A stretch of 64,000 nt of DNA from Herbiconiux sp. A18JL235. GTDB lineage: Bacteria; Actinomycetota; Actinomycetes; Actinomycetales; Microbacteriaceae. Positions 1-35,321 of the stretch are shown here, in pieces. The notes beneath the pieces were generated by a model that made no database searches, had not been told where the DNA came from, and saw only the letters and a list, made by a program, of their open reading frames with translations. The stretch spans positions 2,232,001 through 2,296,000 of the forward strand of contig NZ_CP162511.1 in assembly GCF_040939305.1 (NCBI RefSeq), written 5' to 3'. The position numbers were made by a program, and so were the translations under genes. Position 1 is the first letter of the stretch, and every line of letters begins with the position of its first letter.

Positions 1-1365
1 TTCGACGAGTCGTCGCTGACCGGCGAGAGCCTCCCGGTGGAGCGCCGTGGTGGCGACCAGGTGCTGAGCGGGTCGGTCAACGGGTCGGCAGCGGTGCGGA
101 TGGTCGCGAGCCGGGACGCGGCGCACAGCCAGTATCAGAGCATTGTCACGCTCGTGACCGAGGCTGCCGCGCATCCGGCCCCCGTGGTGAGGCTCGCGGA
201 TCGCTTCGCACTCCCCTTCACGGGCGTTGCGCTGCTCATCGGGGTCACCGCTTGGGTGCTGTCGGGTGATGCGGTGCGTTTCGCCGAAGTGCTCGTGCTG
301 GCCACCCCGTGTCCTCTGATCATCGCGGCGCCGATCGCGTTCATGGCCGGGATGAGCCGGAGTGCGAAAGCCGGGGTCGTGGTGAAGGGCGGCGCCGTGC
401 TCGAGCGACTCGCCCGCATCCGAACCGTCGTCTTCGACAAGACGGGGACCCTCACCGAAGGGCGGCCGACGGTCACCAGGGTTCGATGGGAACCGGGTTT
501 CAGCGAGGATCGCATCCTCCGCCTGGCCGCGTCGGCCGAGGAGTACTCGAGCCATGTGCTTGCCGCTTCGATCATCGCTCTCGCCCGCGCAAGAGGGCTG
601 GGGCTCCTGCCCGCCGAGCGCGCGGAGGAGGTCGCCACCGCGGGCGTGATGGCCGTGATCGACGGTGACGAGGTGCGGGTCGGAAAGCTGGCGTTCATCC
701 ACGAGCGGGCGCCGATGGCAGCCGCTCCCACCCTGGAGGCAGGCGAGCTGGCGATCTACGTGTCGGTGAACGATCGTTTCGCCGGGGTGATCATCGCGCG
801 TGATCCGTTGCGATCGAACGCCCGGGCGGCGATCTCCGAGCTCCAGCGTCGTGGCGCCCGCAGGGTCGTCATGCTCACCGGCGACGCCCACGCGACGGCG
901 TCGTCGATCGCCGAGCTGGCCGGCATCTCGGATGTGCGGGCGAGCTGCCTGCCCGCCGACAAAGTCAGCGCCGTGGCCGGCATGGACGATCGGCCGGTGA
1001 TGATGGTGGGTGACGGCGTCAACGACGCCCCCGTGCTGGCCGCAGCCGACGTCGGCATCGCCATGGGTGCTCGGGGGGCGACCGCGGCCAGCGACTCCGC
1101 CGATGTCGTCATCCTCGTCGATGACCTGTCGAAGACGGTGGATGCGGTCGCGATCGGTCAGGACAGCGTGCGTATCGCACTGCAGAGCCTCTGGCTCGGC
1201 ATCGCACTCAGCGTCCTCCTGATGATCGTCGCGTCGTTCGGTCTGATCCCGGCCGCTGTCGGCGCCGGGATCCAGGAGGCGGTGGACCTCGTCTGCATCG
1301 TGAACGCGCTCAGGGCGCTCCGTGGGCGCGGCGACCGATCTCGAGACGGTTCTCGACCTCGGTGA
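1..1365 (+). CDS. P1B-type heavy-metal-transporting ATPase, C-terminal part
   Basis: ATP-driven metal cation pump of the inner membrane, missing its N-terminus because the frame is open from base 1. The visible part starts inside the actuator domain (SLTGES), then shows a transmembrane segment with the ion-path motif TPCPL, the phosphorylation loop DKTGTLTEG, the hinge GDGVND and two C-terminal helices. A TPC motif rather than CPC or SPC is described for the P1B-5 type (Ni/Fe/Co export), so copper is less likely; the metal is an inference. It converges on the BON gene at 1310-1999 with a 56-bp 3' overlap. No DevR-like box is visible because its promoter lies outside the window; its place beside a DevR-type island recalls the metal ATPase CtpF of the mycobacterial DosR regulon. 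Confidence 0.9.
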   Translation, partial: FDESSLTGESLPVERRGGDQVLSGSVNGSAAVRMVASRDAAHSQYQSIVTLVTEAAAHPAPVVRLADRFALPFTGVALLIGVTAWVLSGDAVRFAEVLVLATPCPLIIAAPIAFMAGMSRSAKAGVVVKGGAVLERLARIRTVVFDKTGTLTEGRPTVTRVRWEPGFSEDRILRLAASAEEYSSHVLAASIIALARARGLGLLPAERAEEVATAGVMAVIDGDEVRVGKLAFIHERAPMAAAPTLEAGELAIYVSVNDRFAGVIIARDPLRSNARAAISELQRRGARRVVMLTGDAHATASSIAELAGISDVRASCLPADKVSAVAGMDDRPVMMVGDGVNDAPVLAAADVGIAMGARGATAASDSADVVILVDDLSKTVDAVAIGQDSVRIALQSLWLGIALSVLLMIVASFGLIPAAVGAGIQEAVDLVCIVNALRALRGRGDRSRDGSRPR

Positions 1366-1999
1366 CATGGGGTTCGTTCCAGGCGATGTGCTCCGCCTGC
1401 CGCTTGGCCCGGTTCGACGGCACGAATCCCGTGAGGGTGACGGCCCCGTCTGCGACGATGACGTCGATGGGGCAGCCGTGGGTGAGGGCGGTGCGACCGA
1501 GGGCGGCGCGGACGTGCTCACGGATGCGCCGGGACGGCTCGCGCGGCGTGAGCGTGATGCGATTGTCGATCCAGCGCACCCCCCGCATGTGCCGGATGCT
1601 GCTCTCGGCGACCCGGCGCTGGAAGTCCCAGTGCACCTCTCCGGTGAGGATCACGTTGCCCTCGTGCACCACCACGCTGATCGCGCCATCGGGCACGGAC
1701 GCGTTCCAGGCCAGACGCTGCACGATCGCCTCGGCCAGCAGCGTGTCGGTCGGCGCGTGGTGGAGCGCCCGGATCCGGATGTCGTTCGCCACGCCCTGCA
1801 CTCCGGTCACCCCGAGCGCGGCTGCCGTGGCCGCGCTGAGCTGTTCGAGGGTGGAGACGTCGCCGCTGAGGGTGGCGACTCTGCCGCCCACGCCCACGCC
1901 GATCTGTGTCGACCCGAGGCCCGGTATCGAGGCGAGTTCGTCTTCGACCATCTGCTGGATGGCGGTGTCGGTGGGCACCTTCCCCTGCACGTAGGTCAT
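1310..1999 (-). CDS. Triple BON-domain protein (229 aa)
   Basis: Three BON domains fill the protein (about residues 8-77, 78-152 and 155-225), each with the alternating helix/strand pattern and the VxLxGxV-type strand (ATLSGDV, VILTGEV, VTLTGFV). BON domains are thought to bind lipids or other hydrophobic ligands and usually occur in periplasmic or outer proteins such as OsmY; here no signal peptide is visible, so it is probably cytosolic. Its start codon overlaps the stop of the upstream paralogue (ATGA at 1996-1999), making it the last gene of a five-gene coupled operon starting at 4067. Exact function is unknown; a role in stress or dormancy is inferred from context. Confidence 0.85.
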   Translation of the reverse strand: MTYVQGKVPTDTAIQQMVEDELASIPGLGSTQIGVGVGGRVATLSGDVSTLEQLSAATAAALGVTGVQGVANDIRIRALHHAPTDTLLAEAIVQRLAWNASVPDGAISVVVHEGNVILTGEVHWDFQRRVAESSIRHMRGVRWIDNRITLTPREPSRRIREHVRAALGRTALTHGCPIDVIVADGAVTLTGFVPSNRAKRQAEHIAWNEPHVTEVENRLEIGRRAHGAP

Positions 2000-2688
2000 G
2001 GTCGCACCTCTGCGGCGTGGGTGTCGATGATGAGGTCGTTGCGCACCCTGGTGACGTGAGGTGATCGCCAGGCGGCGAGCTCGGCCTGGTGCTTGGCGTC
2101 GTAGCTGCGTACCTCTCCGGTCAGGATGACCGTGGTGCCGTCGACGTCGACATGGATGGCCTCGGCGTCTGTCAATGCATTGCGTTCGAGAGCGTCGGTG
2201 ATGCGCTTGTGGGTGCCGGCTGCTGAAGCTCGCGGCGCGAGGGTGATGCGGTTGTCCACCCAGCGCACGCCCTTGACCGCGGCGACCTCGCGTTCGGCGC
2301 CCTGCCTGGTGATGTCCCAGCTGACCTCGCCGGTGAGCACGACTCCCCCGTCGTGCACCTCGGCGTCGATCTCCCCGGTCGGGATGCGCGCCGACCAGTG
2401 CAGCGCCTGGGCGATCGCGGTGGCGATCTCGGTGTCGGTGGGGGTGTCGTGCGAACCACGCACCGTGATCTCGTTGGCGACAGCCTGCACACCGCGCATC
2501 CGCAGCACTGCCTTGGCGGCGGTGTGCCGATGCCAGTAGTACGGCACCTCGCCGGTGAGGGTGACGACGCCGTTCGTGACGGCCACCCCGATGGCCGGCG
2601 CGTCCACCCCAGGGGTCCAGCGGAGCTCGTCATCGACGAGCTTCTTGATCTGCGCGTCGGTGAGCCCGGCCGCCTCGGTGATGGTCAT
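1996..2688 (-). CDS. Triple BON-domain protein (230 aa)
   Basis: Paralogue of the neighbouring BON proteins with three BON domains, recognisable by repeated strands VVTLTGEV, VVLTGEV and VILTGEV and by the linking motif MRGVQAVANEI. The start at MTITEAAG is chosen because it begins right after the end of the upstream flavin protein (ATGA overlap, 2685-2688); longer in-frame versions run antisense-like Arg-rich sequence and are rejected. No signal peptide or membrane segment is visible. Together with the genes at 1310 and 2685 it forms a translationally coupled chain. Ligand and partner are unknown. Confidence 0.85.
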   Translation of the reverse strand: MTITEAAGLTDAQIKKLVDDELRWTPGVDAPAIGVAVTNGVVTLTGEVPYYWHRHTAAKAVLRMRGVQAVANEITVRGSHDTPTDTEIATAIAQALHWSARIPTGEIDAEVHDGGVVLTGEVSWDITRQGAEREVAAVKGVRWVDNRITLAPRASAAGTHKRITDALERNALTDAEAIHVDVDGTTVILTGEVRSYDAKHQAELAAWRSPHVTRVRNDLIIDTHAAEVRP

Positions 2689-3143
2689 GAGTTGTCCTTC
2701 CTGGTGCGGTGATCGGGTTCGGTGGTGAAGCGCACGCCGGTGAGCGTGCGGGGGCTGATGACGAAGTAGTTCCACTTCGTCGAGCGGGTGAAGGTGTGCA
2801 ACGCCCCGACGCCGGAGGCCTCGATCTCGGCATCGACGTCGAGGCGCCGGGCGGTGCCGCGGAGCACGACGCTCCAGCGCTGTCGGTTCTCGGTGCCGTC
2901 GGTCTCGAAGGCGACCCCCGGCCTCTCGGTGAGACTGACGATCTTCGTCCCGGGGGCGCTCCTGAAGTAGATCAGCTGGTCGTTCACGAGGTGGTTGATG
3001 GGGAAGATGTCGGCGCCGTCCTCGTCGGCGACGGCGAGTCGGCCGAAGCTGGTGGCGGCGAGCAGGCGCCAGCACTCCTCGTGACCGAGAGTCTCGACCA
3101 CGTCGGCGGCATCGATCTCGTGGGGGCGCGTCGTCCAGCTCAT
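2685..3143 (-). CDS. Pyridoxamine 5'-phosphate oxidase-like flavin-binding protein (152 aa)
   Basis: Small split-barrel protein of the PNPOx-like superfamily; family members bind FMN or F420, and similar proteins occur in the mycobacterial DosR regulon. Family signals are the N-terminal GHEECWRLLAATSFGRLAV, the central DIFPINHLVNDQLIYFRSAPGTK-type barrel core (about residues 45-65) and a C-terminal WNYFVISPRTLTG strand. A GGAG ribosome site precedes the chosen ATG, and both ends overlap neighbours by four bases (3140-3143 and 2685-2688). It is a clear paralogue of the protein at 3645-4067. Substrate is unknown; a soluble flavin/F420 reductase or redox sensor is plausible. Confidence 0.85.
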   Translation of the reverse strand: MSWTTRPHEIDAADVVETLGHEECWRLLAATSFGRLAVADEDGADIFPINHLVNDQLIYFRSAPGTKIVSLTERPGVAFETDGTENRQRWSVVLRGTARRLDVDAEIEASGVGALHTFTRSTKWNYFVISPRTLTGVRFTTEPDHRTRKDNS

Positions 3144-3625
3144 AGGTAGCTCCTCAGGATTCGAAGGTTGTTGCGGAGGTCGTGAACGGCGGGATGCCGC
3201 AGGATCACCCGGCCGGCGAGTGCTCGCTGCTCGGGTGAGGGGACGGTTCCGTCCAGGTGCACCGTCGTGCCGTAGGTCGTCACGTAGATCCGCGACGGGT
3301 CGATGACCTCGTCGGATCGCAGTGCCGCGAGGAGCTGCTCGCGGAGATCCTCCGGGCACGCGGCGGTGGGTACGAGGATGCGGTTGTCGACGGAGACGAC
3401 CTGGGCGAGGCTGAGCATGCGTCGTTCGATGATGCGACGCTGGTGATCGTGCTGCAGCGTGCCCTCCAGCACGACTCTGCCGTCGGGTTCGACGGAGATG
3501 CGGATGTCGTCGGCTGGGCTTCGGAGGAGCCAGGACAGGATGCCTTCGGCTCCTCGGCGGATCTCGGCACCTGAGGCCGTCTGACCGCCGTCGCTGGGGA
3601 GCGCGATCCGTTCGGTGAGAGTCAT
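3140..3625 (-). CDS. Double BON-domain protein (161 aa)
   Basis: Two BON domains are visible: roughly residues 20-90 with VVLEGTLQ and the VVSVDNRI linker, and residues 95-160 with TVHLDGTV and VHDLRNNLRI. It is shorter and more diverged than the three triple-BON paralogues nearby. The start MTLTERIAL has a GGAG site and follows the upstream flavin protein by 19 bp; the end overlaps the next start (TCAT at 3140-3143). No signal peptide is seen. Alternating flavin protein/BON order in this operon suggests duplication of a two-gene unit. Confidence 0.82.
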   Translation of the reverse strand: MTLTERIALPSDGGQTASGAEIRRGAEGILSWLLRSPADDIRISVEPDGRVVLEGTLQHDHQRRIIERRMLSLAQVVSVDNRILVPTAACPEDLREQLLAALRSDEVIDPSRIYVTTYGTTVHLDGTVPSPEQRALAGRVILRHPAVHDLRNNLRILRSYL

Positions 3626-3644
3626 GGGGGGTCTCCTGGGCCAG

Positions 3645-4067
3645 TCAGTAGCGGTCGGGTTCGGGTGCACGCCGGAAGGCGCGGCCGCTCAGGGTGGTGG
3701 GCCGGATGCGCACCCACCGGTATTTCAGGGTGGGAAGCAGCGGTACGAGCGGCAGGGCCTCGGCCTCGTCGATCTCGCTCTGCTTCTGCAGTTCCTCGGC
3801 GGTGCCCTTAACCACGACGCTGTAGGCGCTGCCGTCGTCGACGCAGTCGATCTCGAACACGACCTCGGGGTGGATGGTCAGTTCGAGCAGCTTCGTGCCC
3901 GGAGCGGTGCGCAGGTAGAGCGCGTCGTCGGCGCCGACATAGTTCACTGGGAAGACGTCGATCTCACCCGCCGCATTCACGACGAGGCGCCCGAACGAGT
4001 TCTCGCGCAGTCGCTCCCAGCACTCATGGTCGTCGAGGATGTGCATCGCGTCGATCGTGTCGTCCAT
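3645..4067 (-). CDS. Pyridoxamine 5'-phosphate oxidase-like flavin-binding protein (140 aa)
   Basis: First gene of the five-gene leftward operon. It belongs to the PNPOx-like split barrel family (motifs DDHECWERLRENSFGRLVV near residue 10 and FPVNYVGADDALYLRTAPGT near residues 40-60), like its paralogue at 2685-3143. The start MDDTIDAM is fixed by a strong AAAGGAGG site a few bases upstream. The leader holds a 19-bp tandem duplication and a DevR-like box (4140-4153), so induction by the DevR homologue encoded at 6599 is likely. Flavin or F420 binding is inferred from the family; substrate unknown. Confidence 0.85.
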   Translation of the reverse strand: MDDTIDAMHILDDHECWERLRENSFGRLVVNAAGEIDVFPVNYVGADDALYLRTAPGTKLLELTIHPEVVFEIDCVDDGSAYSVVVKGTAEELQKQSEIDEAEALPLVPLLPTLKYRWVRIRPTTLSGRAFRRAPEPDRY

Positions 4068-4077
4068 GTCGGCCTCC

Positions 4078-4115
4078 TTTCTCTGTGCAGCAAGTCTTTC
4101 TCTGTGCAGCAAGTC
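4078..4115. repeat. 19-bp perfect tandem duplication in operon leader
   Basis: Two identical adjacent 19-base copies (4078-4096 and 4097-4115; unit TTTCTCTGTGCAGCAAGTC on the plus strand) lie between the DevR-like box and the ribosome site of the gene starting at 4067. The 5' edge of copy one contributes to the ribosome site of that gene. Looks like a recent replication-slippage event that lengthened the leader. Confidence 0.95.
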
Positions 4116-4139
4116 AACGAGAGCGCGGATCCCGCACTG

Positions 4140-4153
4140 TGGTCTTTGGTCCC
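4140..4153 (-). promoter_or_regulatory. DevR/DosR-like box A
   Basis: On the minus strand reads GGGACCAAAGACCA, matching the form GGGAC-CAAA-GNCCC shared by four sites in this region and close to the mycobacterial DosR core GGGACTWWAGTCCC. It is 72 nt upstream of the flavin-protein gene starting at 4067 and would drive the operon 4067 to 1310. Confidence 0.7.
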
Positions 4154-4211
4154 ACGGAGAGGCGGAGCGGTGATCGCGACAGGCGGGGGGCCGGCGCCTC
4201 AGGACGATGCG

Positions 4212-4793
4212 TCATCGTCGTCCCAGTTGACCTTGACGATGCAGGTTGAGCCGGCTCGCGAGGTGCACTCCCCACTCGGCTGCGTCGGCGGGCTGTCCGT
4301 CGATCAACCGGTGCGTGGCGTCGACGAGGAAGTCGCGCGGAGGAACGAGCGGCTGGTACCCGGAGGCGCGAAGGTCGCGATCGATGCGCCGAGCGGCCGA
4401 GCCGGTGAACAGGCGAGGCGTCTTCATGCTGCGGGTCGAGAACGCGGCGACGTGGGCCTGTCTCGGTGCCCACGGCAGGGCGCGCAGGAGTTCCCGGAGC
4501 CCCCGGGTGGGGTCTGTGTGTTCGAGGACGAGATCCCCCTTGCTCCGTTCTGCGATGTTCCGGGCCTCGTGCCGTGTGGTCTCGGAGCTGAGGCCGAAGA
4601 CGTGCGTAGGTGCTCCCGCGACGAGCAGGTCGGCTCGCGTCACATCTGCGAGGTCGGCCGCGACGGCGTCGACCACGACGACGTCGGCGAAGGGGCGGAG
4701 CTGTTCGGCGATGACCTCGGCGATCCGCCGGGTGGCGCCGAACATGGACTCGTAGAGCACCACGACCCGGGCACGGGCGACGTTCTCGTTCAC
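4212..4793 (-). CDS. Flavodoxin-domain protein (193 aa)
   Basis: FMN-binding electron carrier of the flavodoxin fold. The phosphate-binding loop YESMFGATRRIAEVIAEQL is near residues 12-30, followed by DLLVAGAPTHVFGLSSETTR (about 55-75), which forms the 60s loop region. The C-terminal half is less typical. Start is GTG at 4793, which overlaps the stop of a 16-codon ORF (GTGA), so translation probably depends on upstream reading. It ends an operon led by the BON gene at 5523 and the DevR-like box at 5558. It may supply electrons to the PNPOx-like proteins encoded next door; that is inference. Confidence 0.85.
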   Translation of the reverse strand: MNENVARARVVVLYESMFGATRRIAEVIAEQLRPFADVVVVDAVAADLADVTRADLLVAGAPTHVFGLSSETTRHEARNIAERSKGDLVLEHTDPTRGLRELLRALPWAPRQAHVAAFSTRSMKTPRLFTGSAARRIDRDLRASGYQPLVPPRDFLVDATHRLIDGQPADAAEWGVHLASRLNLHRQGQLGRR

Positions 4794-4840
4794 GCAGCGG
4801 CCTCGTCTCCGAACCGCGTGGTGTGCTCGACCGTGCTCAT
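4790..4840 (-). CDS. Putative 16-aa linker ORF (MSTVEHTTRFGDEAAA)
   Basis: A 16-codon ORF starts with ATG inside the stop of the BON gene (ATGA, 4837-4840) and its TGA overlaps the GTG start of the flavodoxin gene (GTGA, 4790-4793). It thus bridges exactly the gap between two genes by double stop-start overlap. Either it is a real micropeptide or a coupling device that hands ribosomes from the BON gene to the flavodoxin. No homology can be judged at this length. Confidence 0.45.
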   Translation of the reverse strand: MSTVEHTTRFGDEAAA

Positions 4841-5523
4841 CGGAGTCCTCGGGAGTCGACGACGATCTGGTTGTCGACGTGCTGGACGTGGGGCGAGTTC
4901 CAGGCTGCGCGCTCCGCTTCGCGCCGCTCCTCGTAGGAGCGCACGGTGCCGGTGAGGCGGACGGTGGTGTCACTGACGGCGACGGTGATGTTGTGGGCGT
5001 CGATGAGCGCGTCTCTGCGGAGCGCATTGCGGATGCGCTCACCGGCATCTCGCGCCGAGACCCGTCGGGCGAGCTCGATGCGGTTGTCGACGAGGCGGAC
5101 GAACTGCACGTTCTGCACGGCCCTGCGGGCGGCACGGCGCTGATAGTCCCAGTCGACGGTGCCGGTGAGGACGACGGCGCCGTCGTGGACGGTCGCGGTG
5201 ACCGCGCCGGTGGGCAGGGTGGTCGTCCATGCCAGGACCTCGTTGACGTGGCGGGCGATCTCCTCGTCGCCGGCTGTCGCTTCGACGGTTCCGCGCACGG
5301 TGAGGTCGTTCGCCACCGTGCGCACGCCTTCCATGCGGAGCGCGGCCTTCTCCGCCGCGATCTTCTCGGGGAGCGAAGCGACCTCGCCCGCGAGGGTGAC
5401 GACACCGCCGATGACGGCGACGCCGATGGTCGCGGGGTGGACTCCGGGCGTCCAGTCGAGTTCGTCGATGACGGACTGTTGGAGGCCGCGGTCGGTGGGG
5501 CTGAGGACAGATGAAGTGGTCAT
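4837..5523 (-). CDS. Triple BON-domain protein (228 aa)
   Basis: Three BON domains with strands VVTLAGEV, VVLTGTVDW and VRLTGTVRSYEERREAE; the sequence is most like the protein at 1996-2688, showing duplication across two operons. Start MTTSSVLSPTD at 5523 is taken as it begins the conserved region; the in-frame extension further upstream is the antisense of the divergent stress-protein gene. No signal peptide. The DevR-like box B begins 34 nt upstream of the start codon. First gene of BON - 16-aa ORF - flavodoxin. Confidence 0.85.
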   Translation of the reverse strand: MTTSSVLSPTDRGLQQSVIDELDWTPGVHPATIGVAVIGGVVTLAGEVASLPEKIAAEKAALRMEGVRTVANDLTVRGTVEATAGDEEIARHVNEVLAWTTTLPTGAVTATVHDGAVVLTGTVDWDYQRRAARRAVQNVQFVRLVDNRIELARRVSARDAGERIRNALRRDALIDAHNITVAVSDTTVRLTGTVRSYEERREAERAAWNSPHVQHVDNQIVVDSRGLR

Positions 5524-5557
5524 GCCTTGATCCTGAGACGCCGACCAGTGCCTCCGT

Positions 5558-5571
5558 GGGACCTTGGTCCG
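5558..5571. promoter_or_regulatory. DevR/DosR-like box B, divergent
   Basis: GGGACCTTGGTCCG on the plus strand: two GGAC half-sites around CTTG, with the same 14-bp geometry as the other boxes. It lies between divergent genes, 34 nt from the BON gene start (5523) and 100 nt from the universal stress protein start (5672), so it may serve both. Confidence 0.7.
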
Positions 5572-5671
5572 TTCGCGACCGGAGTCCTGACGTGACACTC
5601 GAGGCGGAGAACGGATCGGAAGGGAACACCGCACCACGACTCCTCCCCAGCTACACGAAAGGAAACCGCTC

Positions 5672-6571
5672 ATGACCACCCGCACGATCGTCGCCGTCGA
5701 CGAGGGCCCCGCCGGGGATGCCGCTCTCGACTGGGCCATCCGCCGCGCCCATTGGGCGAAGGAACCGACACTCCTGGTCCACGTGGTCGAGGAGACCACC
5801 CTCGTGCCCGGCAAGGTCCTCAGCCCCGACCGCATCGACCGCGCCCACGCCCTTCTCGGCACGGCAGCCGCTCGCGTCAGGGATGCCGTGCCCGGGCTCG
5901 ATGTCCGCACCGAGGTGATCACCGGAGACGTCGTGCCGTCGTTGACGGCGCTGACCGCCCCCGACGTCCTCCTCGTGGCTGGGGAGAACACGCACGGATC
6001 GGTCCGGTCGTCGATCGGCTGGCCGGCCGCGGTGCGCGTCGCCGCGCACGCGGCCGGACCGGTCGCCGTGATACCGGCTGACGTGACCGGGGAACGCCGT
6101 GGGATCGTGGTGGGCGTCGACGACACGGACGAGTGCATGCGCGTAGCCGACATCGCAGCAGTCGAGGCGCTCACGACCGGCCAGGTCCTGCACGTCGTTC
6201 ACGCCTGGATGGCCCCCTCCGTGTGGCTCGACACCTTCCCGCTCGATGACGAGTTCATGGCCTCTCTCGCCGAGCCGCACCAGCACCTGGTCGACGATGT
6301 CGTCGGCGTTCTCCGAGGCGAGCACCCTTCACTCGACGTCGTCGGGCACACCGTCCACGGAAACCCTGCTCAGTGCCTGCTCGACGCCGACCCTCTTCCG
6401 GCTCTCGTGGTGGTCGGAACCCGCGGGCGGTCCGCATTCAAGCGGTTGTTCCTCGGCTCGGTCAGCCGCGACCTGCTCCTCAACCTGGATGCGCCCGCCA
6501 TCGTCGTGCCCACCGCCCGCACGACCCCGGCGCAGGTGCACGCCGGCGCGCACACTGCGACGACGTCATGA
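5672..6571 (+). CDS. Universal stress protein, two USP domains (299 aa)
   Basis: Tandem USP-domain protein: domain 1 about residues 1-140 (TRTIVAVDEGPAGDAALDWA) and domain 2 about 145-285 (RGIVVGVDDTDECMRVAD). Domain 2 keeps the ATP-binding pattern GTRGRSAFKRLFLGS, while the corresponding part of domain 1 (GENTHGSVRSSIGW) is less typical. Two-domain USPs are hallmark members of the mycobacterial DosR regulon (for example Rv2623). GAAAGGA precedes the ATG. Box B upstream suggests DevR control. Probably a cytosolic ATP-sensing growth or stress regulator. Confidence 0.9.
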   Translation: MTTRTIVAVDEGPAGDAALDWAIRRAHWAKEPTLLVHVVEETTLVPGKVLSPDRIDRAHALLGTAAARVRDAVPGLDVRTEVITGDVVPSLTALTAPDVLLVAGENTHGSVRSSIGWPAAVRVAAHAAGPVAVIPADVTGERRGIVVGVDDTDECMRVADIAAVEALTTGQVLHVVHAWMAPSVWLDTFPLDDEFMASLAEPHQHLVDDVVGVLRGEHPSLDVVGHTVHGNPAQCLLDADPLPALVVVGTRGRSAFKRLFLGSVSRDLLLNLDAPAIVVPTARTTPAQVHAGAHTATTS

Positions 6572-6598
6572 TGCCGCTCGTGCGGGCCCGGTGAACCG

Positions 6599-7234
6599 TC
6601 AGAGCTCGTGCCGGTGCTCGGAGCCGAGCACGGCGGCCTGGGTGCGGCGTTCGAGACCCAGTTTGCGCAGCATGTTCGAGGCGTAGTTCTTCACCGTCTT
6701 CTCTTTCAGCCCCAGCCGCTCCCCGATCTGCCGGTTGGTCAGGCCATCGGTGATCAGCCCCAGGATCTGACGCTCGCGGATGTTGAGCGCGCCGAACCTC
6801 GGGTCGTCGCGCGAGTCCGACCGCACCCGCTCCGACACCCTGCGAGTCGCCCCAGGGTGGAGCAGCGAGCGACCGGCCGCGACGGCCGTGACCGCGTCGA
6901 CCAGACTGGGACCCCGCACGTCTTTCAGCAGGTAGCCGGATGCACCGGCGACGACCGCCGCGACGACGGCGTCATCGTCGTCGTACGCGGTCAGGATGAC
7001 GCAGCGGATGCCCTCGAGAGTCGACCTCAGCTCGCGGCAGAGGTCGATCCCGTTCCCGTCGGGGAGCCGCATGTCCAGGAGAGCGACATCGGGCTTCGTC
7101 GCGATGATGCGCGCCAGTCCCTGGGCCACGGTTCCGGCTTCGGCGACGACCTCGACACCGGGGGTCGCTTCGAGCAGATCGGCGACTCCTCTCCTGACGA
7201 TCTCGTGATCATCGACCAGCGCCACTTTGATCAT
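6599..7234 (-). CDS. devR: NarL/LuxR-family response regulator, DevR (DosR)-like
   Basis: Response regulator of 211 aa. The receiver domain has acidic residues at VDDHE and the phosphoacceptor Asp54 in ALLDMRLPDGNG, the same position as in M. tuberculosis DosR. The C-terminal HTH reads GLTNRQIGERLGLKEKTVKN followed by KLGLERRTQAAV, very like the DosR recognition region (EKTVKN, MERRTQAAV). It is translated with the kinase gene by ATGA overlap (7231-7234). The family activates hypoxia/NO-responsive genes through GGGACT-type palindromes; four such sites occur within 5 kb. The symbol is by resemblance, not experimental. Confidence 0.88.
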   Translation of the reverse strand: MIKVALVDDHEIVRRGVADLLEATPGVEVVAEAGTVAQGLARIIATKPDVALLDMRLPDGNGIDLCRELRSTLEGIRCVILTAYDDDDAVVAAVVAGASGYLLKDVRGPSLVDAVTAVAAGRSLLHPGATRRVSERVRSDSRDDPRFGALNIRERQILGLITDGLTNRQIGERLGLKEKTVKNYASNMLRKLGLERRTQAAVLGSEHRHEL

Positions 7235-8958
7235 CCGTTCTCACCTCGGTCTTCGTCGGGGATGGGGATCCGCCACACCACGCGGGTTCCGCTCGCCGAG
7301 GTGGAGACCTCCATCGTGCCTTGCAAAGCCGTCACCCGTGCCTTCAGGTTCGTCAGCCCGCTCCGCCGGACCTCACTCGGCATCCCGATGCCGTCGTCGC
7401 TCACCTCGATCAGGATGTCGGTGTCGTCGACCGTCAGCGTCACGTCGACGTCGGACGCGCCGGAATGCCTGACGACGTTGCTCAGCAGCTCGCGCACCAC
7501 GGCGGTCACGTCGTCGGCGAGTTCTCCCGTCACGAACAGATCGACGGGGCCTGTGAAACTCACGTTGACGGGCTTGGGGAGGGCTTTGGAGGCGTCGGCG
7601 GCGATGTCGAGCACTCGGTGCCGTGCAGAGGCCGAGGTGTTGTCGGAGGGAGGGGTGAGGGCGAAGACGATCTTCCGGATCTGTGCGATCGCCCTGTCGA
7701 TCCGGGTCACGGCTTCGTCGAGCCGCGCGCGGTCTGCTGTCGCCAGGATCGGGGCGAGGCTCTGAAGCTCGAGACCGGTGCCGAAGAGATCCTGGATGAC
7801 ATGATCGTGCAGGTCTCGTGCGATCCGTCCGCGGTCCTCGAGCACGACCATGCGCTGCTGGTCGGCACGGGCTCTGGCCAGGGCGAGGGCAACGCTGATC
7901 CGCTCCCCCAGGTCGACACCGACCTCGAGATCGGTCGGCGTGAAGCTCGGCCGACCGGGTGCCCGAGCGGCGACCAGCACCCCCCACACGGTCGTACCGT
8001 CGGTCAGCGCGACGTAGAGGGTCGAGCCCGTCGCCTCGTTCTCCGTGATGGCGAACGGGTCGACTTTGCGGGCGGCGCCGACGTGCACGGGCGGGGCGAT
8101 GATCGATCTTCCCGAGTCGAGCACGTCGGTGGCGAGCGTTGCCGCCGCACGGAGGTCGGTGCCGTCCAATGCGAGGGCGTCGCGACCTCGGGCGGCAGCG
8201 ACATGGAGCGAGCCGGGCTCCCGCCCGGGCACGAGGATGGTCAGCAGCTGTGAGTCGGAGCGCGTGATCAGTTCATCGGCGACAGTCGCATAGGCCCGTT
8301 CGATGTCGGTGTCGGCGAGCGCGACCGCGATCTCGGCCGAGGAGGTCATCCACCGTTCCCTGGTTCGCGCTTCAACGAGGATGCGGGCATGGTCGATGGC
8401 GGATGCGGCGGTGGCGGCGAGGGCGCGGAGAAGCTGTTCGTCCTCGTCGGAGAACTGTCCGCGCCGCGGATTGGTGAGGTAGAGGTTGCCGTACACCGCG
8501 CCCCGCACGCGAATCGGCACCCCGAGGAAACCGTCCATCATGGGGTGGCCGGCCGGGAATCCGGAGGAACGCGGGTCGGTCCGGATGTGCTCGAGCCTGA
8601 TCGGCTCTTGGTTGGCGATCACGGCGCCGAGCAGACCGTGCCCCTCCGGCAGGTGCCCGATCCGGCGGACCGCGTCGTCGTCCATGCCGACGTGGATGAA
8701 CGCCTCCAGTCCGTGCCCGTCCGGGGCGATGACACCCAGGGCGCCGTATTCGGCGTCGACGAGTTCGACGGCGGCTTCGACGATGCGGCGCAGCACGACA
8801 CCCAGATCGATGTCCTCCCCCACCGCCTGCGAGGCTCTGAGCAGGGCTCTCAGACGGTCCTGGGACCGCTTCACCTCGTTCGCGCGAGCGATCAGCTCCT
8901 CGATGGAGCGGTCGAGCTCCGAGCGCGGCAGGTCGGGGAACGAGATCGAATCCGTCAC
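7231..8958 (-). CDS. devS: GAF-domain sensor histidine kinase, DevS (DosS)-like (575 aa)
   Basis: Cytosolic sensor kinase with GAF-A (about 50-195), GAF-B (200-360), HisKA_3 dimerisation domain with phospho-His384 in RDLHDHVIQDLFG, and a C-terminal HATPase (VVRELLSNVVRHS, DDGIGM). Length is close to M. tuberculosis DosS (578 aa). GAF-A holds SSGFPAGHPMMDGFLGVPIR; its His138 aligns by motif with the heme-ligating His149 of DosS, so heme-based sensing of O2/NO/CO is predicted. The GTG start follows a GGAGGC site; upstream in-frame ATGs lie in antisense of the DUF1003 gene. Operon with the response regulator at 6599. Confidence 0.88.
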   Translation of the reverse strand: MTDSISFPDLPRSELDRSIEELIARANEVKRSQDRLRALLRASQAVGEDIDLGVVLRRIVEAAVELVDAEYGALGVIAPDGHGLEAFIHVGMDDDAVRRIGHLPEGHGLLGAVIANQEPIRLEHIRTDPRSSGFPAGHPMMDGFLGVPIRVRGAVYGNLYLTNPRRGQFSDEDEQLLRALAATAASAIDHARILVEARTRERWMTSSAEIAVALADTDIERAYATVADELITRSDSQLLTILVPGREPGSLHVAAARGRDALALDGTDLRAAATLATDVLDSGRSIIAPPVHVGAARKVDPFAITENEATGSTLYVALTDGTTVWGVLVAARAPGRPSFTPTDLEVGVDLGERISVALALARARADQQRMVVLEDRGRIARDLHDHVIQDLFGTGLELQSLAPILATADRARLDEAVTRIDRAIAQIRKIVFALTPPSDNTSASARHRVLDIAADASKALPKPVNVSFTGPVDLFVTGELADDVTAVVRELLSNVVRHSGASDVDVTLTVDDTDILIEVSDDGIGMPSEVRRSGLTNLKARVTALQGTMEVSTSASGTRVVWRIPIPDEDRGENG

Positions 8959-9045
8959 GGCGCCTCCAGCGGTCTCAGCGCGAAAGTACCATCTCGAAGC
9001 CGCGTCCACCACCGCCGGGGCGACGATTCCGTCGTCAGCCACCGA

Positions 9046-9059
9046 GGGACCAAAGCCCC
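9046..9059 (+). promoter_or_regulatory. DevR/DosR-like box C
   Basis: GGGACCAAAGCCCC, 35 nt upstream of the DUF1003 gene start at 9095 and 87 nt upstream of the devS-like GTG at 8958 on the other strand. It could drive the membrane protein and also autoregulate the kinase/regulator pair. Confidence 0.7.
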
Positions 9060-9094
9060 AGGCGCCGGGGATCCGGAAGGAGAGGGTTGACCGC

Positions 9095-9559
9095 ATGAAA
9101 CGACCGCTGACCAACTGGCACACGACAGCCCACGAGAACCTGACCCCGGGAGAGCGGGCGGCCGACCGGCTGAGGAACGGGATGGGCAGCTGGCCGTTCG
9201 TCGCCGGGTTCGTCGCCCTCATGCTGATCTGGTTCGTGCTCAACTCCCTCGACAGCGCGTGGGATCCGTATCCGTTCATCCTCCTGAACCTGTTCCTCAG
9301 CATGTTGGCCGGCCTGCAGGGCGCCATCCTGCTGATAGCGGCGAAGCGGCAGGACAGCATCGCGGCCGCGCTGGCCCAGCACGACTTCGAGACCAACCTC
9401 GCCGCCAAGCAGGAGATCGAGGAGTTGATGGCCATCAACCGCGCGCAGCTCGCCCTGCTGGCCGAACTGGGATCCAGCCGCGGCGCCGCGGGTTCGTCGA
9501 ACACCCTTCCGCGCCCTGCGCTGCCGCCCTTCCCCGATCCCGCGCCTCCCGGTCGATGA
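9095..9559 (+). CDS. DUF1003 family membrane protein (154 aa)
   Basis: Integral membrane protein with the family pattern of two hydrophobic segments: GSWPFVAGFVALMLIWFVLN (about residues 30-50) and DPYPFILLNLFLSMLAGLQG (about 58-78), then ILLIAAKRQD and a cytosolic helical tail ending in a Pro-rich stretch. The family function is unknown. ATG at 9095 has a good GGAAGGAGAG site. Box C 35 nt upstream points to DevR control. Convergent with the alcohol dehydrogenase gene, two bases apart. Confidence 0.85.
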   Translation: MKRPLTNWHTTAHENLTPGERAADRLRNGMGSWPFVAGFVALMLIWFVLNSLDSAWDPYPFILLNLFLSMLAGLQGAILLIAAKRQDSIAAALAQHDFETNLAAKQEIEELMAINRAQLALLAELGSSRGAAGSSNTLPRPALPPFPDPAPPGR

Positions 9560-9561
9560 CC

Positions 9562-10596
9562 TCACGGCACCACGACCGCGCGGCCTCGGATGTCTCCGTC
9601 GTGGAGCCGGCGGTAGGCTTCCGGGGCGTCCGCCAGACCGAACCGCTCCACGTGAACCCGCACGGCTCCCGAACGAGCGAGATCGAGAACCTCGAGGAGC
9701 TCGGATCGGCTTCCCCAGTACGGTGCCCGCACCGACGCTCCGAACGGGGTCGAGAAGAAACCCGTCGGCAGCGTGGCGCCGCCGATGCCGACGATCTGCA
9801 CGTCGCCGTCGAGAGCCACGACCTCTTTCGCGATCTGCAGAGTCGCCTCCGCCCCGACGAAATCGAACACCACCTCCGCCCCGATACCGTCGGTCAGCTC
9901 GCGGATGCGAAGAGCGGCGTGCGAATCCGACCGCACCGTGTGATGTGCGCCCACCTCCGTCGCCAGAGCGAGCTTGTCGTCGTCGAGGTCGACGGCGACG
10001 ATCGTGGCGGCGGTGGTCGCCCGGAGGATCTGCACGGCGACGTGCCCGAGACCACCGACGCCGATCACGACGGCCGTCGAACCGGGCCACAGCTTGTCGC
10101 TGCTCGACCGGATCGCATGGTAGGGCGTCAGGCCCGCATCGGTCAGCGAGACGCAGTCGACCGGGTCGAGGCCGTCGAGGCGAACCAGGTGACGGGGGTC
10201 GTCGACGATCATGTACTCGGCCATCGCGCCCGGCGCGCCCAGGCCGGGCGGTGCGATGCCGAGCCCGGCGGCGTTCGGACAGTAGTCCTCGCGCCCCTGG
10301 GCGCAGGCGCGACACCGACCGCAGCCCCACGGTCCGTAGACCGCGACCGAATCGCCGAGGGCCACGCCGGTCGCTCCGGGACCGAGCTTGTCGACGACGC
10401 CGGCGGCCTCGTGCCCGAGGGTCAACGGGAGTCCGTAGACGTACTGATCGGCCGGGAGACCCATCAGGAACCAATCGGAGTGGCAGAGCCCGGCCGCCGT
10501 GACCCTCAGGCGGACCTCGCCCGGCCCGGGCTCGGGGGTGTCGACCTCGACCACCTCGGGTGGTGCGCCGATCGCGCGATACTGCAGCGCCTTCAT
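9562..10596 (-). CDS. Zinc-dependent alcohol dehydrogenase, MDR superfamily (344 aa)
   Basis: NAD(P)-dependent zinc alcohol dehydrogenase. The GroES-like catalytic domain has Cys in AAGLCHSDW and GHEAAGVV; the structural zinc is bound by four Cys in GCGRCRACAQGREDYC; the Rossmann domain has GVGGLGHVAVQ (about residues 177-187) followed by VAVDLDDDKLALA, whose Asp after the second strand favours NAD. The start at MKALQYRAIG overlaps the stop of the upstream USP gene (10593-10596), so it is the second gene of a box-D-controlled operon. Possibly a fermentative or aldehyde-detoxifying role under hypoxia; the substrate is unknown. Confidence 0.88.
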   Translation of the reverse strand: MKALQYRAIGAPPEVVEVDTPEPGPGEVRLRVTAAGLCHSDWFLMGLPADQYVYGLPLTLGHEAAGVVDKLGPGATGVALGDSVAVYGPWGCGRCRACAQGREDYCPNAAGLGIAPPGLGAPGAMAEYMIVDDPRHLVRLDGLDPVDCVSLTDAGLTPYHAIRSSSDKLWPGSTAVVIGVGGLGHVAVQILRATTAATIVAVDLDDDKLALATEVGAHHTVRSDSHAALRIRELTDGIGAEVVFDFVGAEATLQIAKEVVALDGDVQIVGIGGATLPTGFFSTPFGASVRAPYWGSRSELLEVLDLARSGAVRVHVERFGLADAPEAYRRLHDGDIRGRAVVVP

Positions 10597-11132
10597 CGGC
10601 TCGCACCCTCGCTCTGCTTCGCAGCGACCCGATCGCGCGCTGCCTCGGCGTGGGGTTCGGCGTGGGGATGGACGATCAACACGGGGCAATGGGCGTGTGC
10701 AGCGATCTCCGCGCTCACCGAGCCGAGCAGCAGTCCGGCGAAGCCTCCGTGGCCCCGGCTTCCGGTCACGATCAGATCAGCGGTGTCGCTTTCGTCGATG
10801 AGCACTCGTGCGGCCGATCCCTCGGCGATGGACAGGTGCACGCGTTCGGGCTTGGTCTCGCCGAACACGGCGTCGGCGACATCGTGCACGGTGCGTGCCG
10901 CATCCCGGTCGGGATACCACTCCGGAGGCACCATCGTGTACCGCGAGATGGGATAGGTCCACACGCACACCACATCGAGCTGCGCATCGAAGGCCTCGGC
11001 GATGCTCGCAGCCTTGCGCAACGCGGAGATGGATGATTCGGAACCATCGACGCCGACCACGACACGGGAGAACTCCCCCAAGCCCGGCCGGGCAGCGTGA
11101 GGGTCAGGGATGGAGACAGGTGATTCGCTCAT
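10593..11132 (-). CDS. Universal stress protein, single domain (179 aa)
   Basis: Single USP domain with SRVVVGVDGSESSISALRKA near residue 23 and the nucleotide-binding pattern GSRGHGGFAGLLLGSVS near residues 125-141, so an ATP-binding USP is expected. The start MSESPV is preferred because a GGAG site precedes it; the longer ATG would extend into the DevR-like box. Box D ends 34 nt upstream. Coupled by ATGA overlap to the alcohol dehydrogenase gene. Likely part of the hypoxia/dormancy response; direct partner unknown. Confidence 0.88.
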   Translation of the reverse strand: MSESPVSIPDPHAARPGLGEFSRVVVGVDGSESSISALRKAASIAEAFDAQLDVVCVWTYPISRYTMVPPEWYPDRDAARTVHDVADAVFGETKPERVHLSIAEGSAARVLIDESDTADLIVTGSRGHGGFAGLLLGSVSAEIAAHAHCPVLIVHPHAEPHAEAARDRVAAKQSEGASR

Positions 11133-11166
11133 GTCACCAGGCTCCCCGCGGCCGGCCCCTACGGTG

Positions 11167-11180
11167 TGGACCAAAGTCCA
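11167..11180 (-). promoter_or_regulatory. DevR/DosR-like box D
   Basis: TGGACCAAAGTCCA on the plus strand: half-sites TGGAC and GTCCA around CAAA, with the same 14-bp geometry as boxes A-C. It lies 34 nt upstream of the USP gene starting at 11132. Confidence 0.7.
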
Positions 11181-33359: not shown

Positions 33360-35321
33360 CTACACGGTGAACGTGAACGTCGACCCGAGTCCGTATCGGG
33401 TGATCGCATCCTTGATGACGACCAAGGCCCACAGGCCCTCCGCCGTCGATTCTCCACCGGCGTCGCTCTTGCGGTGACTTCCGGCCGAGTCCGCCTTGAT
33501 CTCGTCGAAGAACGCGCCGCTACCCTCGAACGCACCGGGCCCCGGCTTGCCGGCGTACATCGGCACCAGGGCGGAGTTGTTGCCGATGAACCACGTCCCC
33601 ACGATCTTCGCCGACTGCAAGTAGGCGGTCTTCTTCGCTGCGGCGTCGGTACGGCCGGACTGGCCGTACGCCTCGGCGAGCTCGACGAGACCCACCACGA
33701 TCGACGAGTCCTGGTAGACCGACTGGGTGTCGTTGGTGTGGAAGCGCGCGGCCCAACCCGAGATACCGGTGATGCGCTCCCTGGTGCGGGAGTATCCGTT
33801 CACGGTGTCGGCGTAGTGGTACGCCTGCATCCCGTAGAAGCGGTCAGCGGAATAGCAGATGGTGTCGAGCAGCCCCGTCAACGCAGACGCCGCCTGGCCC
33901 GCGTCGCGCCTCAGGCGGTACGACTTCGCGAGGGCGAGCATCTGCACCTGCCCCCAGGCCTGCCATTCCCCGCCGACGGGGTCGTCGATGAAGATGCCGT
34001 CGCGCCAATCGGTGGTGCGGTACTGGGCCGCGGTGACGCGATTGAGCGCCTGATCCATCTTCGCGTAGACGGACGACTGCGACGGGGCGGCGCTGTAGCC
34101 GTCGACCGTGGTGGCGACGGGCACCCAGGTTCCGTGTCCGGCTCCGACGTACCGGATGCGGTAGTACTCGCTGAGCCCGATGAGGAAGTTGGCGGCGAGA
34201 CGGTTGTCGAGCGTCCCCATGTCGTACTGCAGCACGTTGGTGAGCACCCGATCGAGGTGGTTCTCGAGGAAGGCGCCGAAGGCCAGGTCGTCGGCCGACA
34301 GGGCGCCGCCGGGACTCGTGGCCTTGACCTTCTGCATCATCTGCAATCCGAGCGCGAGCGCCCAGAGCTGCCTGGCGTCGTCGGCGCCGAGGTTGAGGGA
34401 GCTCGTCGTCCAGTCCTTCTTCACTCCCGCGAGCGATGACGTCGACGCGCCCGTGGCCGAACTGTAGAGCGGGCCGGAGTACACGGCGGCGACGTCGGCT
34501 CCGTTCGTCGCCTGCAGGTCGTCCATCGCCACCGAGTAGGGCGGATGCGGCAGGAACGGATCAGCGCGAACGTACGCTCCCGTGGCGTCGGTGATGATGT
34601 GGGAGGGGTCTGAGGTGAACTGCATCCACTGCGAGTGCCCACCTCCGGCGTCGAGGGGTGGGTACTGGGTTCTGCGATAGAACTCGGAGCGGTAACCGTA
34701 GTGCTTGTTCTGGCTCTGCATCACGTCCCAGCCATAGGTCGCGGGAGCATCCAGCCAGGCGAAGTTGTAGACCTTGCCCTCGACGGTGGTGAGGTGACAG
34801 GTGAACGTGAGCAGCGCCTTAGCCGCCGCCAGCGACGAGGCGCGCCCGTTCAGGAGGTAGTCGGTGGCGAGCGCGATCGCGGTGCGGGCGGAGTCGTCGA
34901 CGCAGGTGGCGCCCTCGGCGAGGTCTTGGTAGGGGTTCCACCCGGCAGTCGCCCAGCCCGCTGGTTTCTCCTGCGCGTAGAGCATCATCGCTTTCATGGG
35001 CCAGGCCGCGACGCGGGCGAATCCGCCAGCGCCGAGGACAGCGTCGTAGTAGGAGGGCGTGGGCCAGCTGACGCCGTGCTGGTCGGGCCGCTGGCCGGCT
35101 GAAGTTCCTGAGCCGTAGGTGAAGCCCGTGACCGCGCCGGACGCCGAGATGCTTCGCGCGGTGAGCAGCTGCCAGTTCAGATGGCCGAAAGCGAGGGGGA
35201 AGGCATCGAAATCGAGGGTCACGGTCGCCGCTCGTGCCGCGTCTGGTGCGGATGTCAGCTGCGGAACCATGAGCCCTCCAGCGGCGGCAGCGATACCTGC
35301 GAGAAAACTGCGACGTCTCAT
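33360..35321 (-). CDS. Tat-exported putative carbohydrate-active enzyme (653 aa)
   Basis: Large secreted protein. The N-terminus MRRRSFLAGIAAAAGGLMVP has a twin-arginine type signal (RRRSFLAG), cleavage probably near ARAATVT. The mature part is rich in Trp/Tyr and helix-loop repeats (WNPYQDLAEGATCVDDSARTA, DARQLWALALGLQ, WQAWGQVQMLALAKSY), suggesting an (alpha/alpha) toroid as in glycosidases or polysaccharide lyases; the family was not identified. Of the ATGs 35327 and 35321, the latter has proper spacing from GGAGG. A perfect palindrome overlaps the upstream region, so repression by a sugar-responsive regulator is plausible. Confidence 0.7.
   Translation of the reverse strand: MRRRSFLAGIAAAAGGLMVPQLTSAPDAARAATVTLDFDAFPLAFGHLNWQLLTARSISASGAVTGFTYGSGTSAGQRPDQHGVSWPTPSYYDAVLGAGGFARVAAWPMKAMMLYAQEKPAGWATAGWNPYQDLAEGATCVDDSARTAIALATDYLLNGRASSLAAAKALLTFTCHLTTVEGKVYNFAWLDAPATYGWDVMQSQNKHYGYRSEFYRRTQYPPLDAGGGHSQWMQFTSDPSHIITDATGAYVRADPFLPHPPYSVAMDDLQATNGADVAAVYSGPLYSSATGASTSSLAGVKKDWTTSSLNLGADDARQLWALALGLQMMQKVKATSPGGALSADDLAFGAFLENHLDRVLTNVLQYDMGTLDNRLAANFLIGLSEYYRIRYVGAGHGTWVPVATTVDGYSAAPSQSSVYAKMDQALNRVTAAQYRTTDWRDGIFIDDPVGGEWQAWGQVQMLALAKSYRLRRDAGQAASALTGLLDTICYSADRFYGMQAYHYADTVNGYSRTRERITGISGWAARFHTNDTQSVYQDSSIVVGLVELAEAYGQSGRTDAAAKKTAYLQSAKIVGTWFIGNNSALVPMYAGKPGPGAFEGSGAFFDEIKADSAGSHRKSDAGGESTAEGLWALVVIKDAITRYGLGSTFTFTV

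Follow-up and report, generated by a model that had tools for sequence, protein, structure and literature searches.

Does a DevR/DevS-like gene pair of Herbiconiux sp. A18JL235 govern the stress genes that surround it, and how would it act at their promoters? Most work on DosR-type control concerns mycobacteria and, under the name OsdR, Streptomyces. The original prediction, drawn from a 64,000-nucleotide stretch of DNA (the window, to whose numbering positions refer unless prefixed by C1), placed four DosR-type boxes around this pair and proposed a dormancy regulon. Its core reading, that these are DosR/DevR-type regulon boxes around a DevR/DevS pair, is supported by three findings: regulator and sensor resemble DevR and DevS, the boxes are conserved in orthologous promoters, and box and regulator occur together in the genus and the family.

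The regulator and the sensor kinase

The response regulator (6599..7234, minus strand), assigned by Pfam, structure-sequence match and alignment, has DevR/DosR as its best match among solved structures (231 bits, versus 139 for the runner-up), with 111 of 205 residues identical (54%). Proteins of this type are defined by D54 and K104 in the NarL-type receiver and by K179, K182 and N183 in the helix-turn-helix domain. The Herbiconiux protein has both domains and, in the alignment, retains all five of these residues as well as T198, as expected of a DevR/DosR protein; K182 appears as a DevR residue in the accessible part of PMC5999986. With NCBIfam, the best 25 of the 92 matched models all fell below cut-off, and no DevR model was among the matches listed.

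The kinase (7231..8958, minus strand; Pfam and alignment) belongs with DevS, DosS and DosT. It contains two GAF domains, HisKA_3 and HATPase, and its GAF-A, which resembles DosS/DosT-type GAF domains, keeps the haem-ligand histidine (His138) and the distal tyrosine (Tyr160). We take these two residues to correspond to H149 and Y171 of DosS-type kinases.

Boxes and genes of the cluster

All four predicted box sequences were found at the positions given, and every one of them precedes one or more genes. The predicted common geometry, GGGAC-NNNN-GNCCN, holds for three of them and fails for the box at 11167, which begins TGGAC. The genes mentioned below were assigned by Pfam.

The leftmost box in the window, GGGACCAAAGACCA (4140..4153, minus strand), follows a flavodoxin-like gene (4212..4793, minus) and precedes a pyridoxamine-oxidase-like gene (Pyridox_ox_2; 3645..4067, minus), from which the box centre is 79.5 nt away. 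The latter gene is the first of a tight minus-strand run that continues with BON (3140-3625), Pyridox_ox_2 (2685-3143), BON (1996-2688, starting at the ATG at 2688) and BON (1310-1999) genes; judging from its spacing, the run would form an operon. The near-palindromic box GGGACCTTGGTCCG (5558..5571) lies between a triple-BON gene (4837..5523, minus), whose ATG is 41.5 nt from the box centre, and a tandem universal stress protein (USP) gene (5672..6571, plus). Its control of the latter is uncertain: the distance is 107.5 nt, and in the orthologous clusters L187 and L188 the box is not near the USP gene. Box GGGACCAAAGCCCC (9046..9059, plus) is centred 42.5 nt 5' of the ATG of a DUF1003 gene (9095..9559, plus) and 94.5 nt from the GTG of devS. 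Finally, TGGACCAAAGTCCA (11167..11180) is centred 41.5 nt upstream of the ATG of a USP gene (10593..11132, minus), which overlaps a downstream zinc alcohol dehydrogenase gene (9562..10596, minus).

The cluster extends to the left beyond the window, where two further boxes occur (C1:2231320 and C1:2231402). The second is centred 64.5-67.5 nt upstream of a heavy-metal P-type ATPase gene, of which the window contains the 3' part (1..1365, plus) and lacks the start and the box. Another gene beyond the window that has a box encodes a DUF2269 membrane protein. Boxes thus precede USP and other stress genes close to the regulator gene. BON, DUF1003 and flavodoxin genes had been proposed as new regulon members; the first two do carry boxes, and the flavodoxin gene, which has none of its own, is at best a member as the probable operon partner of the triple-BON gene.

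Conservation and distribution

In orthologous promoters the box, its spacing and the -10-like hexamer described below are retained while the remainder diverges: pairwise identity is 322/364 in the box, 243/572 in the spacer and 432/1326 upstream. The 4140 box is present in all five species compared, once with a mismatch, and the 11167 box in all five at unchanged distance. Of 50 sites counted across the genus, 27 are no further than ~20 kb from devR; one genome that has DevR (G010) counts against the association, its one strict site being away from devR.

Among 249 family genomes, 50 of the 51 strong modules of box, hexamer and ATG fall in the 80 genomes scored as having a close relative of DevR, a number that may be undercounted since DevR presence was scored on 12 first-look candidates per large genome; 23 of these 50 sit no more than 30 kb from devR. 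When the spacing was shifted by 10 nt as a control, 3 of 60 modules were strong, versus 51 of 109 at the real spacing. Counting against the association, a search in one box orientation gave no strong module in 43 DevR-positive family genomes outside the genus. Across the class, the spacing peak is broad (34 of 117 distinct strings at 40.5-44.5 nt, these being part of the matches listed) and lends moderate backing to a fixed spacing.

Spacing of box, hexamer and start codon

In four of seven cases the box centre stands 41.5-42.5 nt before an ATG, and a -10-like NANNNT lies between them at -12..-7 or -13..-8. The hexamers are CAGGAT for the triple-BON gene (5530..5535, minus; -12..-7), GAGCCT for the USP gene (11139..11144, minus; -12..-7) and GAGGGT for DUF1003 (9082..9087, plus; -13..-8). 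At DUF1003 box and hexamer are both shifted one base further, so that the hexamer moves with the box. A leaderless promoter would be expected to carry its -10 hexamer in this place, at -12..-7 from the start codon. NANNNT occurs at the expected place in 4 of 4 promoters of this genome, 13 of 13 in close relatives and 12 of 15 in other actinobacteria, against a background of 8.7-10.1%; at other loci of the genus only three of five boxes at this distance have it, which counts against the rule. Hexamer positions 2 and 6 were identical in all 52 comparisons of orthologous promoters.

The Pyridox_ox_2 promoter has TTGACT (4112..4117, minus) where the 4140 box would lead one to expect a -10 element. 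In five of five species 23 nt lead from the box to the start of this hexamer, although the distance from box to ATG varies between 61.5 and 79.5 nt; that TTGACT lacks the A at position 2 counts against the model. Upstream of devS, TACTTT (8983..8988, minus) lies in a block conserved among orthologous promoters and is a possible -10 of the devS promoter.

Proposed mechanism

Boxes, spacing, conservation and co-occurrence are established from the sequence. We consider it probable that these genes form a two-component regulon of the DosR/OsdR type with class-II, probably leaderless, promoters; as a regulon of boxes and DevR/DevS, it is well supported computationally. By homology, DevS would sense oxygen, NO or redox state through its haem-type GAF domain and phosphorylate DevR at D54. 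A DevR dimer is then expected to bind the 14-bp inverted repeat GGGACC-WWN-GGTCCC and its variants and to activate transcription, as suggested by the retained contact residues and by the co-occurrence of box and regulator. At no fewer than four target promoters activation would be of class-II type, the box standing in place of a -35 element 22 bp before NANNNT. Given a box centre 41.5 or 42.5 nt from the ATG and 22 bp to the hexamer, the predicted first transcribed base is the A of the ATG (BON, DUF2269 and USP genes) or the base preceding it (DUF1003), and the mRNAs would be leaderless. The Pyridox_ox_2/BON operon would share the box-to-hexamer spacing of the other promoters, but with a leader. 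Homology further suggests a role in low oxygen or dormancy.

Alternative explanations

Could the likeness of the boxes be a chance effect of base composition? In the window the loose geometry is not enriched, with 4 matches (one of them outside the cluster, at 34311) versus 9.5 expected in shuffles, and is rarer than chance; GGACCAAAGTCC with up to two mismatches is near chance there (5 versus 3.8 expected). It is the tight form that is enriched: with at most one mismatch to GGACCAAAGTCC there are 8 sites in the whole 4.3 Mb genome, 4 of them inside the 7-kb cluster, a count that is post hoc because the pattern was derived from the cluster's own sites. The box at 11167 is the genome's only exact GGACCAAAGTCC. 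A control with the pattern read backwards outnumbered the real count in this genome and most genomes of the genus, an unfavourable result; its base composition context differs from that of the real pattern, and box positions and co-occurrence were therefore used instead. A crude ORF test called 14 of 19 GGGACCNNNGNCC sites coding, wrongly including three intergenic cluster boxes, and such sorting is unreliable because open antisense frames cross intergenic boxes; it speaks neither for nor against the proposed refutation by equal frequency of the pattern in coding DNA. A GmrSD-like gene has a further site before it, at C1:2699004. The left-side boxes, the conservation of orthologous promoters and the co-location with devR in other genomes support the boxes independently of how the pattern is defined, and the conservation, spacing and co-occurrence tests used sequences beyond the view of the original prediction; a chance origin is scarcely credible.

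Accepting the boxes, one may ask where transcripts start and which regulator is involved. With a box over or near the core promoter, a start ~15-20 nt before the ATG and Shine-Dalgarno-like translation, these would be short-leader promoters that DevR might repress. A short leader is conceivable because an AGGA, GGAG or GAGG tetramer occurs at -17..-6 in 8 of 16 promoters, including those of BON, USP and DUF1003 here. These tetramers are not conserved between species, whereas hexamer positions 2 and 6 are; the BON tetramer, AGGA, overlaps the -10-like hexamer; and at Pyridox_ox_2 the hexamer tracks the box, not the ATG. We regard short leaders as improbable and prefer class-II, leaderless starts. 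As to the regulator, the pair had been called the only one of its kind, which is incorrect: the genome has another devS-devR locus, at C1:3,587-3,590 kb. Its DevR2 (C1:3589464) is 69% identical to DevR, shares the recognition stretch EKTVKN and has an operon box, GGGACCAAAGACCC, of the same form as the window boxes. DevR2 might thus be the main reader of the boxes, or both proteins might read them, and the adjoining pair would not be the sole regulator. Against this, the window boxes cluster round the first pair, and the orthologous clusters L185-L188 retain that pair next to the same target genes; we hold a main or shared role of DevR2 to be rather unlikely, though less so than short leaders.

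Comparison with known systems

Like Mycobacterium DevRS/DosRS, the Herbiconiux system combines a regulator and sensor of this type with a GGGAC-core inverted repeat and USPs among its targets, and the proximal mycobacterial box overlaps the -35 (PMC3029386, PMC5360333; both available in part). The gap between box and ATG here is 34 nt; the part of PMC5360333 available describes a DosR promoter, likened to class II CRP promoters, whose box precedes the start by 34 bp. The systems differ in the middle of the box (CT-WWA there, CC-WWN here), in the number of boxes (several there, a single one at most targets here) and in the BON, DUF1003 and DUF2269 genes as targets here. The fusion of box and ATG at fixed distance in Herbiconiux may be a further difference.

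The middle of the box had been taken for a new change, a view contradicted by Streptomyces coelicolor OsdKR, whose predicted sites include the GGGACCTTCGGCCC type, and by GGACC-WWN boxes widespread in relatives. According to the accessible part of the same source (PMC5069765), predicted OsdR targets also include a USP-alcohol dehydrogenase unit and a pyridoxamine 5'-phosphate oxidase; the Streptomyces consensus differs, being AGGGCCGATCGGCCCT, and the positions given there for its sites run from +36 to -391, with no fixed distance.

Leaderless promoters are a general feature in actinobacteria: according to the accessible parts of two studies, M. marinum has YANNNT-type -10 elements and 5' UTRs that are 0-3 nt long (PMC8022548), and in M. 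smegmatis 24% of starts are leaderless (PMC6448022). Here, by contrast, the predicted leaderless starts go with a single activator box at a constant spacing. A literature search, with subscription journals mostly outside its coverage, found no DosR regulon in Microbacteriaceae and, in co-mentioning papers covered in part, nothing linking DosR boxes to leaderless starts. The promoter architecture, box, hexamer and ATG at fixed spacing, is the new part.

Co-occurrence traces a DosR-type switch across another large environmental actinobacterial family, and the analysis defines its site and a promoter geometry that predicts start points to the base, and adds BON, DUF1003 and DUF2269 as new candidate targets. 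More tentatively, a good part of the DevR regulon of Microbacteriaceae may consist of one fused cassette, box-22 bp-NANNNT-6 or 7 bp-ATG, in which the position of the activator fixes the start codon; the stress mRNAs would then be leaderless and could be translated by leaderless-competent ribosomes in an energy-poor or hibernating state. If so, promoter geometry would link the onset of quiescence to the way in which messages are translated, and the purpose of leaderless mRNAs would become testable inside one regulon.

Box Inventory and Gene Content of the Cluster

All four boxes of the original prediction were found in the window, at 4140–4153, 5558–5571, 9046–9059 and 11167–11180. The 14-bp geometry proposed to unite them was not enriched in its loose form, with four matches to GGGACNNNNGNCCN in the window (C1:2232001–2296000; G+C content 70%) compared with 9.5 in shuffled sequences, that is, fewer than expected by chance, whereas the tight form proved to be both rare and clustered. 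In the 4.3-Mb genome, GGACCAAAGTCC with at most one mismatch occurs at eight sites, four of them inside the ∼7-kb interval holding the four boxes, and GGGACCNNNGNCC occurs at 19 sites, four of them inside 10 kb and one of these just left of the window. The cluster extends beyond the left edge of the window by two further boxes: GGGACCAAGGACCA, centred 41.5 nt upstream of a DUF2269 membrane-protein gene, and GGGACCAAAGCCAC, centred 64.5–67.5 nt upstream of a heavy-metal P-type ATPase gene that starts left of the window and reads on into it. Once the second locus, devS2–devR2, is included, the boxes total seven. A box-like sequence, GGGACCTAAGGCCC, is also present at C1:2699004 (L052:7003–7109), 99.5 nt before a GmrSD-type restriction endonuclease gene.

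The box at 4140 precedes a tightly packed run of five minus-strand genes, Pyridox_ox_2 (4067–3645), BON (3625–3140), Pyridox_ox_2 (3143–2685), BON (2688–1996) and BON (1999–1310), and not the flavodoxin gene (4793–4212, minus), which had been proposed as a new member of the regulon and is a probable operon partner of a BON gene (5523–4837, minus). Positions 1310–5523 hold four BON-domain and two Pyridox_ox_2 genes inside ∼4 kb. The minus strand also encodes DevR (7234–6599), DevS (8958–7231) and a second USP (11132–10593) with a zinc alcohol dehydrogenase (10596–9562); a tandem USP (5672–6571) and DUF1003 (9095–9559) are on the plus strand. The neighbourhood of several of these genes is maintained in relatives (loci L185–L188).

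Two DevS–DevR Pairs

Along its full length, the window's DevR can be aligned with the mycobacterial protein (111/205 residues identical; 231 bits, compared with 139 for VraR and 119 for NarL). It retains D8, D9, D54, T82, K104, K179, K182, N183 and T198, residues with functional roles in DevR/DosR regulators. Among named records, the closest DevR (91%) belongs to a Herbiconiux MAG, and the family is Microbacteriaceae. DevS comprises two GAF stretches, HisKA_3 and HATPase_c. The best matches of GAF-A are five solved GAF domains, four of them named DevS, the top match (E = 5.7e-40) being annotated merely as a probable histidine kinase. A His and a Tyr at positions 92 and 114 of the solved chain, corresponding to the haem ligand His149 and to Tyr171, are retained as His138 and Tyr160.

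The pair, which the original prediction called the only one, is not unique in the genome, since devS2–devR2 lies 1.35 Mb away; it is preceded by its own box, and DevR2 is 69% identical to DevR. This locus (L051:6998–10096, C1:3,587–3,590 kb) is headed by a 268-aa protein with no Pfam match, which by eye looks like an iron/2-oxoglutarate oxygenase, and its promoter region also contains TTAGCCTGGCCTAAG, which resembles an iron-regulator box.

Spacing Between Box, Hexamer and Start Codon

In at least four genes, the box is joined at a constant distance to start codons that are probably leaderless. Its centre lies 41.5 nt upstream of the ATG of DUF2269, BON and the second USP and 42.5 nt upstream of that of DUF1003, accounting for four of the seven boxes. 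Across orthologous promoters, taken from two relatives in the case of DUF2269 and DUF1003 and from four in that of BON and USP, the box and its spacing stay constant and the remainder has diverged, pairwise identity being 322/364 in the box, 243/572 in the spacer and 432/1326 upstream. NANNNT at −12 to −7 occupies the place expected of a −10 element if the A of the ATG is the first transcribed base. Positions 2 and 6 of this hexamer are identical in 52/52 pairwise comparisons, and in DUF1003 box and hexamer are each shifted one base further from the ATG. With boxes 41.5–43.5 nt from the ATG, the hexamer is found in 4/4 promoters of this genome, 13/13 of five close relatives, 3/5 of other loci of the genus and 12/15 of other actinobacteria (background, 8.7–10.1% of candidate ATG starts). 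In the Pyridox_ox_2 promoter, TTGACT follows exactly 23 nt past the box in 5/5 species while the box-to-ATG distance ranges from 61.5 to 79.5 nt, indicating that the hexamer is tied to the box. Immediately after TTGACT, a perfect 19-bp tandem duplication (4078–4115) makes this leader longer than in relatives. Counting against leaderlessness, AGGA, GGAG or GAGG occurs at −17 to −6 in 8 of 16 promoters.

The proximal DevR box overlaps the −35 element in mycobacteria (PMC3029386), and at one DosR promoter, which the authors compare with class II CRP promoters, the box is 34 bp upstream of the start (PMC5360333); here, genes with the 41.5-nt spacing have 34 nt between box and ATG. In M. marinum, −10 elements have the form YANNNT, and 5′ UTRs of 0–3 nt are translated in leaderless fashion (PMC8022548). 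In PMC3898074, DosR was found only in the reference list.

Co-occurrence of Box and DevR

Among 11 genomes of the genus having a close DevR relative, GGGACCWWNGNCC occurs at 50 sites, 27 of them within ∼20 kb of devR (22/42 with the own genome excluded); the five genomes of the genus without such a relative hold five sites altogether. One DevR-encoding genome, G010, has one strict site, away from devR. A survey of 249 family genomes in one box orientation (box–N24/25–ANNNT–N6/7–ATG) gave 109 matches. Of these, 51 have a box classed as strong, its middle being WW and its end CCY; a control with 10 nt of extra spacing, the single shift tried, gave 60 matches, 3 of them strong. DevR was detected at E ≤ 1e-60 in 80/249 genomes. 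These contain 50/51 strong modules and 31/58 weak matches, of which 23/51 and 3/58, respectively, lie within 30 kb of devR. Outside the own genus, DevR is present in 33 of the 34 genomes with a strong module, and 43 DevR-positive genomes lack one in the orientation searched. The class-level signal is weaker: among 117 of the matches listed, 34 lie at 40.5–44.5 nt, and the −10-like hexamer accompanies 14/34 of these versus 4/83 elsewhere. A devR relative at G395:C1:271326–271940, in a genome of the family, is reported with one internal TAG.

Relation to Streptomyces OsdR

The Streptomyces OsdR consensus is AGGGCCGATCGGCCCT, some sites are GGGACCTTCGGCCC, and predicted targets include a USP–alcohol dehydrogenase–USP unit and a pyridoxamine 5′-phosphate oxidase (PMC5069765). 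The box middle, which the original prediction took for a new change, is thus already known from OsdR, as are the USP–ADH unit and the oxidase target. The one paper found to contain both 'BON domain' and 'DosR regulon' deals with Burkholderia (PMC6127331). The cluster is a predicted DosR/OsdR-type regulon in another actinobacterial group, in which DevR would bind the boxes and activate transcription from the proposed start points in a putative response to oxygen.
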